This document shows positions 10,889 through 44,467 of a stretch of DNA of 45,058 bases, piece by piece. The stretch is from a virus, in the IMG/VR virus record IMGVR_UViG_3300009169_000034, positions 1 to 45,058 of that record. One strand, written 5' to 3'. Positions within the stretch are counted from its first letter, which is position 1; every line of letters starts with the position of its first letter. The notes under the pieces were generated by a model, which was not told the DNA's origin, searched no databases, and saw only the letters and a program-made list of their open reading frames with translations. The position numbers and the translations under genes were made by a program.

Positions 10889-11542
10889 TTATTTCCTTTT
10901 AGACTGTCCTTTTAATTCTTTAATATTACACATTTCTCTTAAACGTTCTGCTATGTAGGTGCCATACATTTCTGAAAGGTCTTCATAACTATAATTTGAT
11001 GTGCCAAACGTCAATGCCTTGTTATTGTATCTTTGCGTTAAAAGCTCAATTAAAGGATGTTTTTCAGTTCCGAAATCTTTGATAACTTTTACCTCTCGGC
11101 CTATCTCGTCTACTATCATAGGTCTTTTATAATAAAATTCAAGGCCGTTATTTTTTATGTGTTCCGGGAGGCTTAAAGATGACATAAACGTAACTCTTTT
11201 TAATGTAAGAGCCTCGATTATATCCTTAATTATCATTAAAATAGTAGTCTTACCGGTTCCGAAACCTCCTACAATAATTAGTCCTTTATCAGGGTCTAAT
11301 GTTCCTTTGTCACTTGCTGTTAGGTAATAATATATATCGTTTATTAAATCTCGATTTAAATTGTCTATGATATACTTCTCATTTGACTTGTAATTTAAAA
11401 GTAGATGTTTTTCAGCAAAAAGTAAAAATAATGACTTATAATCATTAGCTGAAATTTGCAATGTAAATCTCTTTGTGTTTGTAGATTTAAGCTCTTTTAT
11501 CTCGTTCTGAATGCTGCTATATATTTCCGCGAGTTTTATCAT
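10889..11542 (-). CDS. DnaC-like AAA+ helicase loader
   Basis: A 217-residue ATPase. Walker A is GGFGTGKTT at residues 92-100, Walker B RPMIVDEIG near 139-147, a sensor segment TFGTSNYS follows and an arginine-finger-like AERLREM lies near the C-terminus. The layout fits DnaC/IstB-type loaders that place the replicative helicase on phage DNA. No helicase is encoded here, so it presumably loads the host DnaB. Transcribed from P2 with gene 11687-12118. Confidence 0.82.
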   Translation of the reverse strand: MIKLAEIYSSIQNEIKELKSTNTKRFTLQISANDYKSLFLLFAEKHLLLNYKSNEKYIIDNLNRDLINDIYYYLTASDKGTLDPDKGLIIVGGFGTGKTTILMIIKDIIEALTLKRVTFMSSLSLPEHIKNNGLEFYYKRPMIVDEIGREVKVIKDFGTEKHPLIELLTQRYNNKALTFGTSNYSYEDLSEMYGTYIAERLREMCNIKELKGQSKRK

Positions 11543-14951: not shown

Positions 14952-14997
14952 AAGTGATAGGTCTAATAAAACATAGACCTATCACTTAGTTAGCAAC
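14952..14997 (-). other. cluster-1 end element: attC R'' plus 14-bp hairpin
   Basis: R'' GTTGCTAAC (14989-14997) overlaps the stop of gene 14990-15193 and matches its R' at 15143-15151. A perfect 14-bp stem (14952-14965 with 14974-14987, 8-nt loop) follows and ends in TTTTAAT on the minus strand. It is the same element as at 7624-7664. Confidence 0.7.
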
Positions 14998-16819: not shown

Positions 16820-16860
16820 ACCCCGACCAACTCGTGACCGGGGTAAACCATAAACTAACC
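16820..16860 (-). terminator. hairpin terminator with the conserved AGTTTATGGTTT box
   Basis: On the minus strand, 28 bp after the stop of gene 16872-17213, AGTTTATGGTTT precedes an ACCCCG/CGGGGT stem (820-825 with 839-844), 13-nt loop and TTTTG. The box and stem resemble the small-RNA elements at 18281-18361 and 19026-19106, but no 5' partner for the loop is found here. Confidence 0.6.
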
Positions 16861-16871
16861 AACTAAAACCA

Positions 16872-17213
16872 CTATTTTTTTAATAGCTTTTCAATTCCTG
16901 ACTTTACAAGTAGAATACCTTGCAGTAATTCTACCGAAGCATCTTCAATGTTATCGTATTTTCCTTCTTGGTCGTACGCGTTCATTACTGCTCTTACAAG
17001 TTCGCCTCCTTCCTTAGTGTCGATGTCTTTTATTTCCTCTCCGATTTCCTGAATGGCAGAAACGATTTTAAATGCTTTACCGGCATGTTTTACAAATAAG
17101 GTACCACCTTCTATCATGGTGATCTTATCTTCGGATTCTTTGGCTTCTTTTACATCTTTGTAAATGTCCACAAGCGAAGTTAACGCAAATACTGTTTTGT
17201 CAATGTTTTCCAT
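16872..17213 (-). CDS. hypothetical acidic helical protein
   Basis: A 113-residue acidic protein (MENIDKTVFALTSLVDIYKD), helical throughout, with KIVSAIQEIGEEIKDIDTKE in the middle. It is a monocistronic unit with its own -7 element (17235-17242) and terminator (16820-16844). Family not recognised; a phage-specific structural or regulatory helper is possible. Confidence 0.6.
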   Translation of the reverse strand: MENIDKTVFALTSLVDIYKDVKEAKESEDKITMIEGGTLFVKHAGKAFKIVSAIQEIGEEIKDIDTKEGGELVRAVMNAYDQEGKYDNIEDASVELLQGILLVKSGIEKLLKK

Positions 17214-17242: not shown

Positions 17243-17351
17243 CACTTTTTTTTATTATCTATACATACCCCCGTCTTATCCCTGCATATTAAGAGAGTTA
17301 AATTTCTCTTTTTTATGCAAAAATCACAATTAAAGTTGTAAATTTGGACTT

Positions 17352-17466
17352 TAATTGTCAGGCACGAAGCACGGCCGTTTATCCTACGGTATGGCAGTTA
17401 GAAATTCGCGGTTAACGAATATGCAGGTCGGGGGTCAGACGGGAAGCTGTTGCCCCCACTTTTTTT
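17352..17466 (+). ncRNA. candidate structured small RNA (plus strand)
   Basis: The 402-bp stretch between genes 16872-17213 and 17617-18264 has no convincing gene. On the plus strand a TAAATTTG -7 element (17339-17346) is followed by three hairpins: CCGT/ACGG (375-378, 386-389), ATTCG/CGAAT (404-408, 416-420) and GGGGG-CAG/CTG-CCCCC (430-457), the last followed by ACTTTTTTT, as in an intrinsic terminator. It runs against all neighbouring genes. No Rfam family is recognised. The minus strand also reads a possible protein remnant (GDIEALWQKKWGQQLPV, no ATG), so a pseudogene is the alternative. The remainder up to 17616 shows nothing further. Confidence 0.5.
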
Positions 17467-17616
17467 GCCATAATGCTTCAATGTCACCTTTTTTTTCATT
17501 TGCCTTATCCAAACCTTTGGCAGGGGTGAAAAAAATTCGAAAAAAAGACCTGTATTTAACATAATATTATTTACTGAGTGTGTTAATTTAAGATTATTCG
17601 ATTAATCTTATTTTAA

Positions 17617-18264
17617 TCAATTTGATACTGATAAAGGTTTACAATGCCTAAAAGCCCATTCCTTACGCATTACGTCTTTAAATTGTTCAAATGATTTTAT
17701 AAAACCTAATTCAATATATCTGATTGCATCGCGTTCGAGTTGTTGTATATCTCTTTCTTGCTCAGGCGTTGCTTTATCCCTTAATTTTGGTTCGTGCTTA
17801 TTAAATACAACAAGGTTAATTATAGTACCGATTTGGCTGTAATCTGTCTCCGGGAATACTGATAATGATTTGCAAAGTAAGACGTAGTTATCGCCTGCCA
17901 AATGTCTGTCTTTAATTAGTTCATCATGGACAAATTTTATAACTTGATATTCGAACCGTGGATTTAACCACATGGCAAACCTTATAAATAAAAACGGGTG
18001 CATCCATGTCCCTGAATTCACACCGCGTGAGGCCTTTGATTTTACATAGGGGGAATTACCCCCATGTAAATTTTCTTCCTTTATTAATACTTCTAAAAAG
18101 TCATTAGTTTGCTGATTGTAAAAGAAATCCTTTACATCCTTTTTCATTCCAGTATTCGAGTTCCATTGCCTTAACAATGCGGTTGCATTAAACATTCCGT
18201 CTGACGTCCTTTGAAAGACTTCAAAGTCTCCAATTTTTCTAGTTAGCGTAACACTTGTTTTCAT
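17617..18264 (-). CDS. KilA-N domain protein 1
   Basis: A 215-residue protein. Residues 10-130 are a standard KilA-N domain: DGMFNATALLRQWNSNTGMK, then GTWMHPFLFIRFAMWLNPRF and YQVIKFVHDELIKDRHLAG. KilA-N is a DNA-binding fold of large DNA viruses and phages, often in regulators or anti-repressors. The C-terminal part is helical. Its start is 17 bp from the end of the small-RNA element at 18281-18361, so its expression may depend on read-through of that hairpin. Confidence 0.88.
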   Translation of the reverse strand: MKTSVTLTRKIGDFEVFQRTSDGMFNATALLRQWNSNTGMKKDVKDFFYNQQTNDFLEVLIKEENLHGGNSPYVKSKASRGVNSGTWMHPFLFIRFAMWLNPRFEYQVIKFVHDELIKDRHLAGDNYVLLCKSLSVFPETDYSQIGTIINLVVFNKHEPKLRDKATPEQERDIQQLERDAIRYIELGFIKSFEQFKDVMRKEWAFRHCKPLSVSN

Positions 18265-18280
18265 AAAAATAGTATAAAAA

Positions 18281-18361
18281 ATCCGCTTCTGGACTGGCAG
18301 GTCGAAGCGGATATATTAAAACAAAAACTGAGAAAGGTAAGCTCTTTTGGTGGCCAGTCCA
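18281..18361 (-). ncRNA. small RNA or attenuator with loop complementary to its 5' end (copy 1)
   Basis: The minus-strand transcript from the promoter at 18368-18398 would begin near TGGACTGGC (18361-18353). After a 40-nt spacer containing CAGTTTTTGTTTTA comes a 9-bp stem ATCCGCTTC/GAAGCGGAT (281-289 with 304-312) and then TTTTTTA. The 14-nt loop contains GCCAGTCCA (18298-18290), complementary to the 5' end over 9 nt. The same design occurs at 19026-19106 with unrelated pairing sequences, so the pairing is conserved by compensatory change. It could be an autonomous small RNA or a leader attenuator of the KilA-N gene. Confidence 0.7.
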
Positions 18362-18367
18362 ATAGTA

Positions 18368-18398
18368 CAAATATATGCAGAATTATTGGATAAATCAA
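18368..18398 (-). promoter_or_regulatory. promoter for small RNA / KilA-N 1 (TTG-N20-TATATTTG)
   Basis: Minus strand TTG at 18398-18396, 20 bp, TATATTTG at 18375-18368. The transcript start is expected 6-7 bp downstream, at the first base of the 5' pairing segment. Confidence 0.72.
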
Positions 18399-18423
18399 AC
18401 ATTATTCAAATAATTCATTTACT

Positions 18424-18654
18424 TTAATTAAAAATAAGTACATACCAACCATAATCAGGAAAATCATGTTTTAAACACAACTTATCAAATTCAGCCTCTT
18501 CTAATGATTGATAAAATTTTACTTCATCCCACTCATCCGTGGTTTGTAACAAGCCATATTTTACGCCTTTATAAAATTCAGATTGTTTCATTGGTTCGTT
18601 ATATTGAAACCCAACAATACAATAACGAGTAGATAAAATTGTTTTAGCGGTCAT
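18424..18654 (-). CDS. small hypothetical protein
   Basis: A 76-residue protein (MTAKTILSTRYCIVGFQYNE) with an alpha/beta pattern and DYGWYVLIFN at its end. It overlaps the stop of the upstream gene by ATGA. Unknown family; last of three small overlapping genes behind the promoter at 19115-19144. Confidence 0.55.
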   Translation of the reverse strand: MTAKTILSTRYCIVGFQYNEPMKQSEFYKGVKYGLLQTTDEWDEVKFYQSLEEAEFDKLCLKHDFPDYGWYVLIFN

Positions 18655-18824
18655 TTTTTAAACCCATTTAAAAAGTCAATAATTCCTTGATCTAATGATT
18701 CGTGACAGTTATAAAATACTACCTTATTTTTTACCTTTTCCTTAGCGTCTGATTCGTCTTTGGCCGTTAGTGTATGCTTCATGTAGCGACCGAAAAAACT
18801 AAAATATAACGTGTACTCTTTCAT
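18651..18824 (-). CDS. small hypothetical protein
   Basis: A 57-residue protein (MKEYTLYFSFFGRYMKHTLT) whose strand-helix pattern, with TAKDESDAKEKVKNKVVFYN, resembles small alpha/beta phage proteins. Start and stop overlap neighbours by 4 bp on both sides, a strong sign that it is translated. Unknown function. Confidence 0.62.
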   Translation of the reverse strand: MKEYTLYFSFFGRYMKHTLTAKDESDAKEKVKNKVVFYNCHESLDQGIIDFLNGFKK

Positions 18825-19003
18825 ATTGTAAACTTAACAATTACATTAAGATTAACAGGAAACTCTCTACCTGAATTTAACTCTACTCTTTTTATGTCAA
18901 CATTAATAGTTGTATCCATAAAAGCATATTTCATATAAAATGACATTAATATTTCTTTAATATCATGTTCAATCTGTTTTTTCTCTTTTAAAAGATTTTC
19001 CAT
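18821..19003 (-). CDS. small hypothetical protein
   Basis: A 60-residue protein, helical first half (MENLLKEKKQIEHDIKEILM) and beta second half (VELNSGREFPVNLNVIVKFT). It is the first ORF after the small-RNA element at 19026-19106. I chose the ATG at 19003 rather than the TTG two codons upstream. Confidence 0.58.
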   Translation of the reverse strand: MENLLKEKKQIEHDIKEILMSFYMKYAFMDTTINVDIKRVELNSGREFPVNLNVIVKFTI

Positions 19004-19025
19004 GGTCAATTGATTTAAAATAAAA

Positions 19026-19106
19026 ACCCCCGGCAGACGTGAGAGCGAAGCCGGGGGTAAACCATAAACTGAAACACCAAATCAAAATATCTTTATACTC
19101 TCACGT
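19026..19106 (-). ncRNA. small RNA or attenuator with loop complementary to its 5' end (copy 2)
   Basis: The minus-strand transcript should start close to ACGTGAGAG (19106-19098). A 39-nt spacer ending TTTCAGTTTATGGTTT leads to a perfect 9-bp stem ACCCCCGGC/GCCGGGGGT (026-034 with 050-058), then TTTTTATTTT. The 15-nt loop carries CTCTCACGT (19045-19037), complementary to the 5' end over 9 nt. Layout and distances match copy 1 almost base for base while pairing sequences differ. Downstream are three small genes. Confidence 0.72.
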
Positions 19107-19114
19107 ATGTTATA

Positions 19115-19144
19115 CAAATGTATGTATTTTCTTGATATAAACAA
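19115..19144 (-). promoter_or_regulatory. promoter for small RNA copy 2 (TTG-N19-TACATTTG)
   Basis: Minus strand TTG at 19144-19142, 19 bp, TACATTTG at 19122-19115. It lies 10 bp beyond the end of the Cys-rich gene 19154-19267 and starts a separate leftward unit. Confidence 0.7.
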
Positions 19145-19502: not shown

Positions 19503-19961
19503 CTATTTTAATTCAAAGTGCATTCCGTCAGGTAGTTTGAAATCGTACCCGCAATTTACGTAAAGCCTCGATATTTCCAAAAACTCATCAGTAAAAGGAG
19601 TAAGGCCAGCGGCTTCATTTTGCTCACGTGTTTTAAGGTGAGGGTTTTGATGCAAATTGAAATCAACAGAAATAGCCCATGAGTGCATAGACCATTCGTC
19701 AAGCGGGTGTATAGCCCTGTTTATTACCCTTTTCTTCCTAATGTTATGGCACCCGTCAAACGTTTTAATTTATTTGATTAATCCGGTTGCATAAAGCTTT
19801 TGCATCCACATTTCGAATACAGGAATAAAATCTATGTTCATGTAGATTCGCTTTACCGGGAGCCTCCAAATTGGTTTAGGCGTGTAAAGCTTCATCCATT
19901 TTTTTTGAGTGGATGTTTTTAGCGGGTCTCCATAATAATTAAATGCGTCCTTCGATGTCAT
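19503..19961 (-). pseudogene. M15 (VanY-like) peptidoglycan endopeptidase, interrupted by an in-frame TAA
   Basis: One frame of 152 codons encodes an M15-type endolysin, but codon 64 is TAA (19772-19770). Before it is the N-terminal half ending LYATGLIK; after it IKTFDGCHNIRKKR, MHSWAISVDFN and DGMHFELK continue with the complete zinc-ligand set (H, D, H). Relatives usually have an acidic residue at this spot, so GAA to TAA by one change is likely. The rest of the frame is intact, arguing for a recent mutation, a sequencing error or read-through. Either fragment alone should be inactive. It is the main cell-wall hydrolase candidate of the lysis block. Confidence 0.8.
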
Positions 19962-42270: not shown

Positions 42271-43481
42271 TGAGTTGGTTAGAACGATTGAACACCATAC
42301 AACTATCCATTATAACCGGGGACGGTAAAGAGTACTCCCCGCTATGGAAGGATGCCGAAAAGAACATTAACTACAATGTAGAAGGGTTTGATTTTATAGG
42401 AGTAGAAGGCACTTATGTAGCCCGTAAAGAAAAGTCCGGGATTCAATACCCAATGACATTATATTTTCAGGGTGAAAATAATATCGACATATCAGACGCG
42501 TTCGAGATAAGCGCACGGGACAAACGCCCGTGGACAATAAAACACCCTTATTATGGAGAGTTCAAAGCCCAACCTTTAAGTCTGTCATTCAATAACAAGT
42601 TTCAAAACGTTACCGAGATAACCGGGACACTATGGCAGACCATTGACGAAAAATACCCCGAACAGTCAATATCTACAAAAAAGGATGTCGAAATAAAAAA
42701 ACAGGAACTTGATACAACAGTTGAAGATTCATTTTCGAACGCGCTATCAAATCCAAACCCTTCAATAATTGAACCCGGAACAACAGCCGTACAAAGAATA
42801 GGCAAGAATTACGAAAAACTAAAGTTATCAACTGAACAGGCAGCGGAACTTAAAAACGAAATAGCCTCCGCAAGTGCTTTGGTTCAAAATATAGTATCAG
42901 ACCAACGTTCAGCGATTCAACAGATAATAAGTCTTATTAACTTTCCTTTTGAGACAGTTCAGGACATACGTCAAAAGATAGATGCTTATATTATTACTCT
43001 TAATGATTTAATAGGCGTATTCCTAAAAGACAGTAATGGAGACTTTTTACCAACTCCCGGACAAAATGCAACTATGTATCAGTCGTATTCTGCAACTGTA
43101 TTCGGAGAGATGTCCCGTAGTGCTGTTAATGGGAATTTTCAAAACAGAAAAGAAGTAGTTACCGCAATATCGCAAATAAATGAAGCATACAATCAATACC
43201 TTTCAAACATTGATACAATAGGACTAACCGAAGGGTATGATATATCTCAGAAATTAGATGTAATCATAAACCAAACGATAGCCAGTCTGTTTGATGTTGC
43301 TTTTGAATCAAAACAAGAAAGAGTGTATACTATTGATAAAGACGAAAATATTATAACGCTCGCACACAGATTTTACGGTCAAGGAGACGACAATATTATG
43401 ATGTTTATACTCCAAAACGATGTTAAGTTATCAGAGTACGTTACAATGAAAAAAGGACGCCAAATAGTTTACTTCGTATGA
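42270..43481 (+). CDS. gpN-like baseplate protein (DNA circularisation family)
   Basis: A 403-residue protein. The N-terminal domain with SWLERLNTIQLSIITGDGKE and FQNVTEITGTLWQTIDEKYP is the DNA-circulation/gpN family start; the last 45 residues (ERVYTIDKDENIITLAHRFY) look like a LysM or similar binding domain. In Mu it sits right behind the tape measure. It overlaps the next gene by 4 bp. Confidence 0.78.
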   Translation: MSWLERLNTIQLSIITGDGKEYSPLWKDAEKNINYNVEGFDFIGVEGTYVARKEKSGIQYPMTLYFQGENNIDISDAFEISARDKRPWTIKHPYYGEFKAQPLSLSFNNKFQNVTEITGTLWQTIDEKYPEQSISTKKDVEIKKQELDTTVEDSFSNALSNPNPSIIEPGTTAVQRIGKNYEKLKLSTEQAAELKNEIASASALVQNIVSDQRSAIQQIISLINFPFETVQDIRQKIDAYIITLNDLIGVFLKDSNGDFLPTPGQNATMYQSYSATVFGEMSRSAVNGNFQNRKEVVTAISQINEAYNQYLSNIDTIGLTEGYDISQKLDVIINQTIASLFDVAFESKQERVYTIDKDENIITLAHRFYGQGDDNIMMFILQNDVKLSEYVTMKKGRQIVYFV

Positions 43482-44467
43482 AAATCACAATAAACAACAA
43501 ACAATTCAATTTCTTTGCATCTTATGGCATATCGCTAAAGTACAACGCTATTGCCTCCACTTTCTCATTCGATGCCTTACAGGATAAATTAGGCTTTTTT
43601 ATTGAGTACCCAAACATTCAGATATTTGATGACAATGATAACCTAATGTTAACAGGAACTTGTTTAGCCCCAAATCTTAAACAAACAACTAAACCGGAAT
43701 TAACCCAAATCGGAGGGTATTCGCTTCCGGGCATTCTTGAAGATTGCGTTATCCCAGTAAGTTCATACCCTTTACAATTTGACAACTTATCGCTAAATGA
43801 GATAACTTCAAAAGTGATAAAACCTTTTGATATTAAATTCATAAGTACATCAAACATATCGACTGAGTTTAATAAGAAATACCCAAAGGTAGCCGCCGAA
43901 CCGTCTCAATCAATAAAAGACTTTTTAACTGGACTGGCCACACAAAGAAACATAATCCTAACAAATAACGAAAAAGGCGAAATTGTCTTTACGCGCTATA
44001 TAAAACAAATGCCATCGGCACGACTTGAGGAAGGCCAACCCGGAATAAATAACATACAGCTATCAATAAACAGCCAAGCCTTGCACTCAGAAATAACCGT
44101 AATGAGGCAGGCTACAAATGATAATCCTGATTCAGGGGAGTACACAATACAAAATCCATATTGCAGTAAATTCAGGCCGACAATAAAAACACTCGATTCG
44201 GCTGATATTTTCGATGTTCAAAAGGCAGCCCGTAACGAACTATCAAACGAACTAACAAACATTCAAATAACATTCCAAACAACGCGCCTTTATAAGCCCG
44301 GAGAAATAGTCGAATTAAAAGCCCCCTCAATAAACATAAACGCATTTGTTGAGTTATTTATCCAAGAAACCGAAATAACCGGAACAACAAAAGATGAATA
44401 CTACCAAGTAAAATGCGTATTACCTGACATCTATCAAGATAATAAAGTAAAATCAATATTCCAATGA
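43478..44467 (+). CDS. gpP-like tail hub protein (Mu gp44-like)
   Basis: A 329-residue protein whose beta-rich domains (ITINNKQFNFFASYGISLKY; LPGILEDCVIPVSSYPLQFD) match the gpP/gp27-like hub family that closes the tube end. Coupled to gpN- and gp45-like genes by 4-bp overlaps. Confidence 0.78.
   Translation: MKITINNKQFNFFASYGISLKYNAIASTFSFDALQDKLGFFIEYPNIQIFDDNDNLMLTGTCLAPNLKQTTKPELTQIGGYSLPGILEDCVIPVSSYPLQFDNLSLNEITSKVIKPFDIKFISTSNISTEFNKKYPKVAAEPSQSIKDFLTGLATQRNIILTNNEKGEIVFTRYIKQMPSARLEEGQPGINNIQLSINSQALHSEITVMRQATNDNPDSGEYTIQNPYCSKFRPTIKTLDSADIFDVQKAARNELSNELTNIQITFQTTRLYKPGEIVELKAPSININAFVELFIQETEITGTTKDEYYQVKCVLPDIYQDNKVKSIFQ

Follow-up and report, generated by a model that had tools for sequence, protein, structure and literature searches.

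In plasmid countertranscript attenuators, competing pairings set whether a leader terminator forms. Judged by analogy, the nearest precedents for the RNAs described here, in which pairing of a terminator loop is tied to the control of termination, are the thiS and fhsA motifs. The terminator loop of the thiS motif, an HMP-PP riboswitch, is one partner in a putative pseudoknot that works against termination, and mutants of this putative pseudoknot abolish ligand-dependent read-through (PMC6478431). In the published proposal for the fhsA motif (PMC11109978), termination is prevented when RNA further upstream in the leader base-pairs with the terminator loop.

Here we describe a Bacteroidota phage in which two gene units open with an untranslated leader of about 85 nt in which the 5′ nucleotides and the loop of a terminator hairpin are exact complements. 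This architecture is real and non-random, and the phage holds two independent instances of it. The 5′ end of the leader RNA can probably knot into its own terminator loop. The source is a viral contig (IMG/VR record IMGVR_UViG_3300009169_000034), which we analysed over its whole stretch of 45,058 nt, hereafter the window. It belongs to a tailed phage with a portal about 40% identical to those of Ficleduovirus phages of Flavobacterium; the closest portals in IMG/VR are up to 64-65% identical to that of this phage.

Results

Architecture of the two elements

Both elements lie on the minus strand (copy 1, 18361-18281; copy 2, 19106-19026) and have the same order of parts: consensus Bacteroidota sigma-A promoter, 9-nt 5′ segment, spacer, hairpin and U tract. 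A sequence check found every sequence given in a preliminary description of the two elements at its stated position. That description put a promoter directly before each 5′ segment, and this is so for both; the start sites, however, are predicted 2-4 nt upstream of the 18361 and 19106 that it gave. The copy 1 promoter (18399-18368) consists of TTTG (18399-18396), 20 nt and TATATTTG (18375-18368), that of copy 2 (19144-19115) of TTG (19144-19142), 19 nt and TACATTTG (19122-19115). We assigned start sites from the -12 to -5 register of the TAnnTTTG -7 element, its position in F. johnsoniae (PMC6847099) and in F. psychrophilum (PMC9723704). On this published register the transcripts are predicted to start at A18363 and A19110, so that the 9-mers fall at +3 and +5, at the extreme 5′ end.

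The 5′ segment, S1a, is UGGACUGGC in copy 1 (18361-18353, +3 to +11) and ACGUGAGAG in copy 2 (19106-19098, +5 to +13). It is followed by a spacer, L1, of 40 nt in copy 1 (18352-18313), containing CAGTTTTTGTTTT (18330-18318), and of 39 nt in copy 2 (19097-19059), with CAGTTTATGGTTT (19071-19059) at its end. Next comes the terminator hairpin, which has a 9-bp stem, S2, in both. In copy 1 (18312-18281) the arms ATCCGCTTC (18312-18304) and GAAGCGGAT (18289-18281) enclose a 14-nt loop; in copy 2 (19058-19026) the arms ACCCCCGGC (19058-19050) and GCCGGGGGT (19034-19026) enclose a loop of 15 nt. The U tracts lie at 18281-18276 and 19026-19022.

Each loop contains a segment, S1b, that is perfectly complementary to the 5′ segment: TGGACTGGC (18361-18353) matches GCCAGTCCA (18298-18290) in copy 1, where L2 is 5 nt and L3 is 0 nt, and ACGTGAGAG (19106-19098) matches CTCTCACGT (19045-19037) in copy 2, where L2 is 4 nt and L3 is 2 nt. 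The geometry S1a-L1-S2a-L2-S1b-L3-S2b is thus near-equal in the two copies (L1/L2/L3 of 40/5/0 versus 39/4/2 nt). The 9-mer sequences are wholly different. The earlier suggestion that what is kept from one copy to the other is the pairing, not the sequence, is borne out, with a perfect 9-nt complement in each and unrelated sequences.

The complementarity stands out from chance

We scanned both strands of the window blind, without supplying the positions of the elements, for T-tailed GC-rich hairpins with a loop complementary to some stretch upstream of them. With the stricter stem settings, the two copies were the only T-tailed hairpins in the window with upstream loop complementarity of more than 7 nt; shuffling the window six times produced two matches of 7 nt and none longer. 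Looser settings also brought up a few 8-9-nt matches in the window, AT-rich or coding, so what counts is that promoter, position, GC content and terminator come together. Of the GC-rich T-tailed hairpins on the minus strand of the window, two alone lie a leader's length behind a TAnnTTTG promoter, and they are precisely the pair with 9-nt complementarity between 5′ end and loop. When the first 15 nt and the loop were shuffled, the 9-mer arose in 1.6e-4 of trials for copy 1 and 4.7e-4 for copy 2, a joint chance of about 7e-8.

A pseudoknot is plausible and its 5′ pairing is predicted to come first

We estimated the energy of a pseudoknot as the simple sum of S1 and S2 plus a penalty of 9.6 kcal/mol, a commonly used value of our choosing. 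The sum came to -28.3 kcal/mol for copy 1 and -31.8 kcal/mol for copy 2, against -20.1 and -25.9 kcal/mol for the best unknotted folds, in which S1a is weakly structured; the advantage, penalty included, is 8.2 and 5.9 kcal/mol. An L3 of 0-2 nt lets the S1 helix stack on S2 along the S1b-S2b strand, and an L2 of 4-5 nt can bridge the deep groove over 9 bp of helix, with the long L1 free. By this general reasoning on stacking, a coaxial H-type pseudoknot with the RNA 5′ end placed at the top of the terminator stem is feasible, and the pseudoknot proposed in the preliminary description is both sterically and energetically plausible by its loop lengths and computed energies.

Prefix folding placed S1 as the best structure at about 70-78 nt in copy 1 and about 66-74 nt in copy 2, with energies of about -11 to -17 kcal/mol. 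By 82 nt the S2 terminator had replaced it, in a folding model without pseudoknots. Because S1 is the best fold before the complete second terminator arm exists, it has a temporal head start. In the computed prefix folds, then, the 9-bp S1 forms with the loop ahead of the second terminator arm, and it may be an alternative pairing that involves the terminator. S1 and S2 may coexist; as the two look compatible, S1 may leave termination unaltered.

The elements fill unusually long leaders

Copy 1 precedes a KilA-N domain gene of 215 aa (18264-17617, minus strand; Pfam PF04383, 1.5e-19), the ATG of which is about 11 nt past the U tract. Behind copy 2 lies a minus-strand unit of three ORFans (19003-18424) that overlap or abut: one of 60 aa, with its ATG at 19003, about 18 nt past the end of copy 2, one of 57 aa (18824-18651) and one of 76 aa (18654-18424). 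The copy 1 transcript contains no ATG, and that of copy 2 just a 16-codon frame through the terminator. In the middle of an ORFan region, a 61-aa ORF (19503-19688, minus strand) matches the M15 peptidase domain PF13539 along its entire length and resembles a very short fragment of an endolysin.

The leaders are 103 and 111 nt long and are filled by the element. The other consensus promoters in the window that are intergenic with a convincing unit behind them (27249+, 40709+ and 16751-) have leaders of 20-22 nt. The median leader is 24 nt in F. psychrophilum (PMC9723704) and, as published, 32 nt in B. thetaiotaomicron, where long leaders are often regulatory. By sequence, an intrinsic terminator sits between the promoter and the first start codon of the unit in both copies. 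This is the layout of an attenuator; a terminator of an upstream operon would be expected before the promoter, not after it. The attenuator reading already offered in the preliminary description fits this placement behind the promoter and ahead of the start codon, and also fits the shortness of the other leaders of the phage.

No support for a conserved box, third copy or family

It had also been suggested that a shared box defines the elements, that a third, partial copy exists and that the copies form a family. The box, CAGTTTnTGnTTT, is indeed present in both copies, but similarity of that size between the spacers arose in 462 of 5000 shuffles (9%); it is not significant, and the box is not supported as a defining element. 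The two spacers share nothing significant and hold no recognisable sensor. An origin by transposition or duplication was rejected, as the copies lack significant shared sequence.

The supposed third copy at about 16820-16861 (minus strand) has neither promoter nor 5′ complement, and we rejected it as a copy of the element. It is instead the ordinary gene-end terminator of a 113-aa gene (16872-17213): the hairpin at 16820-16844 follows the stop of this gene, and its stem can close to a 5-nt loop. Seventeen nucleotides are common to this site and copy 2 (106 of 5000 shuffles, 2%), a closer likeness than that of the two spacers to each other. The common stretch, AGTTTATGGTTTACCCC (approximately 16841-16857 and 19055-19071, minus strand), covers the flank and 5′ arm of both terminators and may be a recombined terminator module.

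Neither a third member nor a relative in which S1 and S2 covary turned up among IMG/VR viral contigs, phage records, 395 Bacteroidota genomes and about 4 Mb scanned with a descriptor, collections from which records very close to this phage may be missing; a family is thus not supported. The descriptor scan replaced a covariance model because there are only two sequences, MAFFT misaligns them and Infernal cannot hold a pseudoknot. Across phage-related loci totalling 2.8 Mb and a further 1.18 Mb from host chromosomes, the pseudoknot descriptor put the window copies on top, with a G-U-rich 9-bp host match tying with copy 2. Rfam 15 gave no match at the gathering score and chance-level matches only at a relaxed E-value; DNA similarity to phage records was likewise limited to chance matches. 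In IMG/VR, the 17-nt sequence of copy 2 and the site near 16820 had five matches, all without terminator or 5′ partner, the exact S1 pair of copy 1 had one, without terminator, and the promoter-box-T-tract pattern gave no GC-containing loop complement among the matches listed. Inspected by eye, the matches to this pattern in the 395 Bacteroidota genomes were chance-looking sequences only.

Such a leader is also absent from the contigs of KilA-N relatives (44-53% identity). The element is missing from 80 portal-bearing viral loci (portals up to 64-65% identical), which lack the surrounding accessory genes and homologues of the neighbouring ORFans too, from ten bacterial loci, and from five annotated phage genomes, covered in full or in large part. 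Nor is it present in the Ficleduovirus and Cellulophaga phages. No relatives of the 57-aa ORFan protein were found. As long as relatives and transcripts stay unfound, the pair remains a well-defined two-copy curiosity.

Separately, Bacteroides phage LoVEphage (MW660583, locus L134) carries a complete 5S rRNA gene at 11337-11447 on the minus strand (Rfam RF00001, 76.4 bits); the site is annotated with an antisense 'DUF2724' ORF in MW660583 and as 5S rRNA in OY731433.

Other RNAs and hairpins in the window

On the plus strand, the non-coding gap 17255-17617 contains a promoter-like TAAATTTG followed by a GC-rich RNA of about 110 nt with a GGGGG...CCCCC hairpin and seven T (17339-17465). It has no Rfam match even at a relaxed E-value and folds no better than shuffles; it is a possible phage non-coding RNA. 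We rejected this RNA (17346-17465) as a partner of copy 2: its pairing was beaten by 7 of 300 shuffles, yet ran mostly through the G-C-rich hairpin arms and is not convincing. It matches the loop of copy 1 over 8 nt only, and no trans factor was identified. A further sequence, TGGACTGGCCACACAAAGA (43930-43948, plus strand), in the gene 43478-44467, is identical at 17 of 19 positions to the opening 19 nt of the copy 1 S1a region (E 0.07, not significant); an mRNA carrying it could compete for the copy 1 loop. An AT-rich intergenic hairpin at 14952-14987 (minus strand) has a perfect 14-bp stem, an 8-nt loop and a T-rich tail, and is possibly a two-way terminator.

Discussion

We read both elements as 5′ leader attenuators, that is, leader terminators, with the short terminated RNAs as a by-product. 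Going by the sequence, we hold this, the likeliest reading, with roughly even confidence. RNA polymerase would start at the sigma-A promoter and transcribe the S1a 9-mer, the spacer of about 40 nt, and then the first arm and the loop of the intrinsic terminator. S1b would emerge from the polymerase ahead of the second arm of the terminator, which would let the 5′ end pair with S1b first. The S2 stem would then have to close around S1, giving an H-type pseudoknot with the 5′ end stacked on the terminator stem. Part of the transcripts would end at the U tract, with 11-18 nt still to go to the start codon, leaving an RNA of about 85 nt with a buried 5′ end; the remainder would continue into KilA-N or the ORFan unit. 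Some factor of the infection presumably sets the balance between stop and read-through, and we infer that S1 and S2 form together and that S1 changes termination.

As to the direction of this change, we lean slightly, as a guess, towards an early S1 that slows S2 and favours read-through. This leaning towards S1 as a hindrance to the terminator comes from the analogy with the thiS pseudoknot mutants and the fhsA proposal. Whatever occupies the 5′ end would then shut the unit off. If S1 and S2 coexist, the pseudoknot would instead yield a stable, 5′-protected terminated RNA.

In a different reading, the elements are stand-alone small RNA genes. The product would be a stable RNA of about 85 nt, with a pseudoknot that hides its 5′ end from 5′-dependent decay, acting in trans or as a decoy, and the downstream genes would rely on read-through or other transcripts. 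An own promoter, a strong terminator and a buried 5′ end would suit such a gene, and RydC is a precedent for a pseudoknot needed for stability. However, both elements immediately precede start codons, and we found no other consensus promoter for these genes. Moreover, the most target-like segments, the 5′ 9-mer and the loop, are consumed by self-pairing and differ between the copies, and the window holds another exact 9-mer for copy 1 only (43930+). We regard small RNA genes as possible but unlikely.

The position of S1a at +3 and +5, and a stacked model that buries the 5′ end, would also suit a knot that chiefly guards the KilA-N and ORFan read-through mRNAs from decay, with termination incidental. 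A U tract of five to six after a 9-bp stem would be unneeded for this and would lower expression, which makes such a shield improbable.

S1a and S1b might alternatively be inverted protein sites in the DNA, 61-63 bp or about six turns apart, that bend the promoter region into a loop; the complementarity in the RNA would then be a by-product. KilA-N is usually taken as a DNA-binding domain, and the centre-to-centre spacing is similar in both copies. The second site, however, lies exactly inside the terminator loop in both, and because the sequences of the copies are unrelated, two proteins would be needed; we give an inverted operator little credence.

Least credible of all is that these are plain leader terminators with loops that match the 5′ end by accident: conservation lacks confirming relatives and 8-9-nt matches between loop and upstream sequence, mostly AT-rich, do occur in 2.8 Mb of phage DNA, but two GC-containing 9-mers in the same place have the very low joint probability given above, and none of 111 promoter-plus-hairpin arrangements in about 4 Mb pairs better than these two, with the G-U-rich host-genome match as sole tie.

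The attenuator reading can be taken a step further, to a claim that we make only tentatively and on the sequence. The elements might represent an undescribed compact phage RNA in which the nascent 5′ terminus is itself the switch strand and threads the terminator loop, occupancy of the 5′ end decides between stop and read-through, and exchangeable pairings keep the two units orthogonal. If true, this would be a minimal attenuator without a separate antiterminator hairpin. Its pairing sequence could be changed freely, allowing several copies per genome without cross-talk, which would be useful for building RNA switches in Bacteroidota. It would also mean that terminator loops, usually thought irrelevant, can hold regulatory information.

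How do the elements compare with known systems? RydC (PMC4337610) is a short bacterial RNA, too, and depends on a pseudoknot for its stability. It exposes a 5′ seed and works with Hfq, whereas the phage elements consume their own 5′ end and sit in a leader. In the hok and AapA type I toxin mRNAs (PMC6733600), the 5′ end also pairs with the 3′ part of a short transcript after co-transcriptional intermediates, but this pairing hides the ribosome-binding site of the toxin ORF. The phage elements have no such ORF, and the partner is the terminator loop. Plasmid antisense-RNA attenuators (engineered forms, for example, in PMC4878617) resemble them in that competing pairings decide the fate of a leader terminator. 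There the competing strand is antisense; here it is the RNA's own 5′ end, with no antisense transcript identified.

The fhsA motif shares the proposed pairing of the terminator loop with upstream leader RNA, but its partner is a preceding hairpin; in the phage elements the partner is instead the 5′ end, which is single-stranded, and there is no folate gene downstream. The thiS motif is alike in having a leader terminator directly before a gene, in being very compact and in using the loop for pairing. Yet its pairing involves a few nucleotides, highly conserved and inside the terminator itself, and it occurs in two phyla, tied to thiamin genes. The phage elements pair 9 variable bp between loop and 5′ end, without a conserved sensor, and have the KilA-N gene and ORFans downstream rather than a thiamin-pathway gene. 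Set against these systems, the phage leaders look like a known kind of regulator, the leader attenuator, in a new version that so far belongs to one phage.
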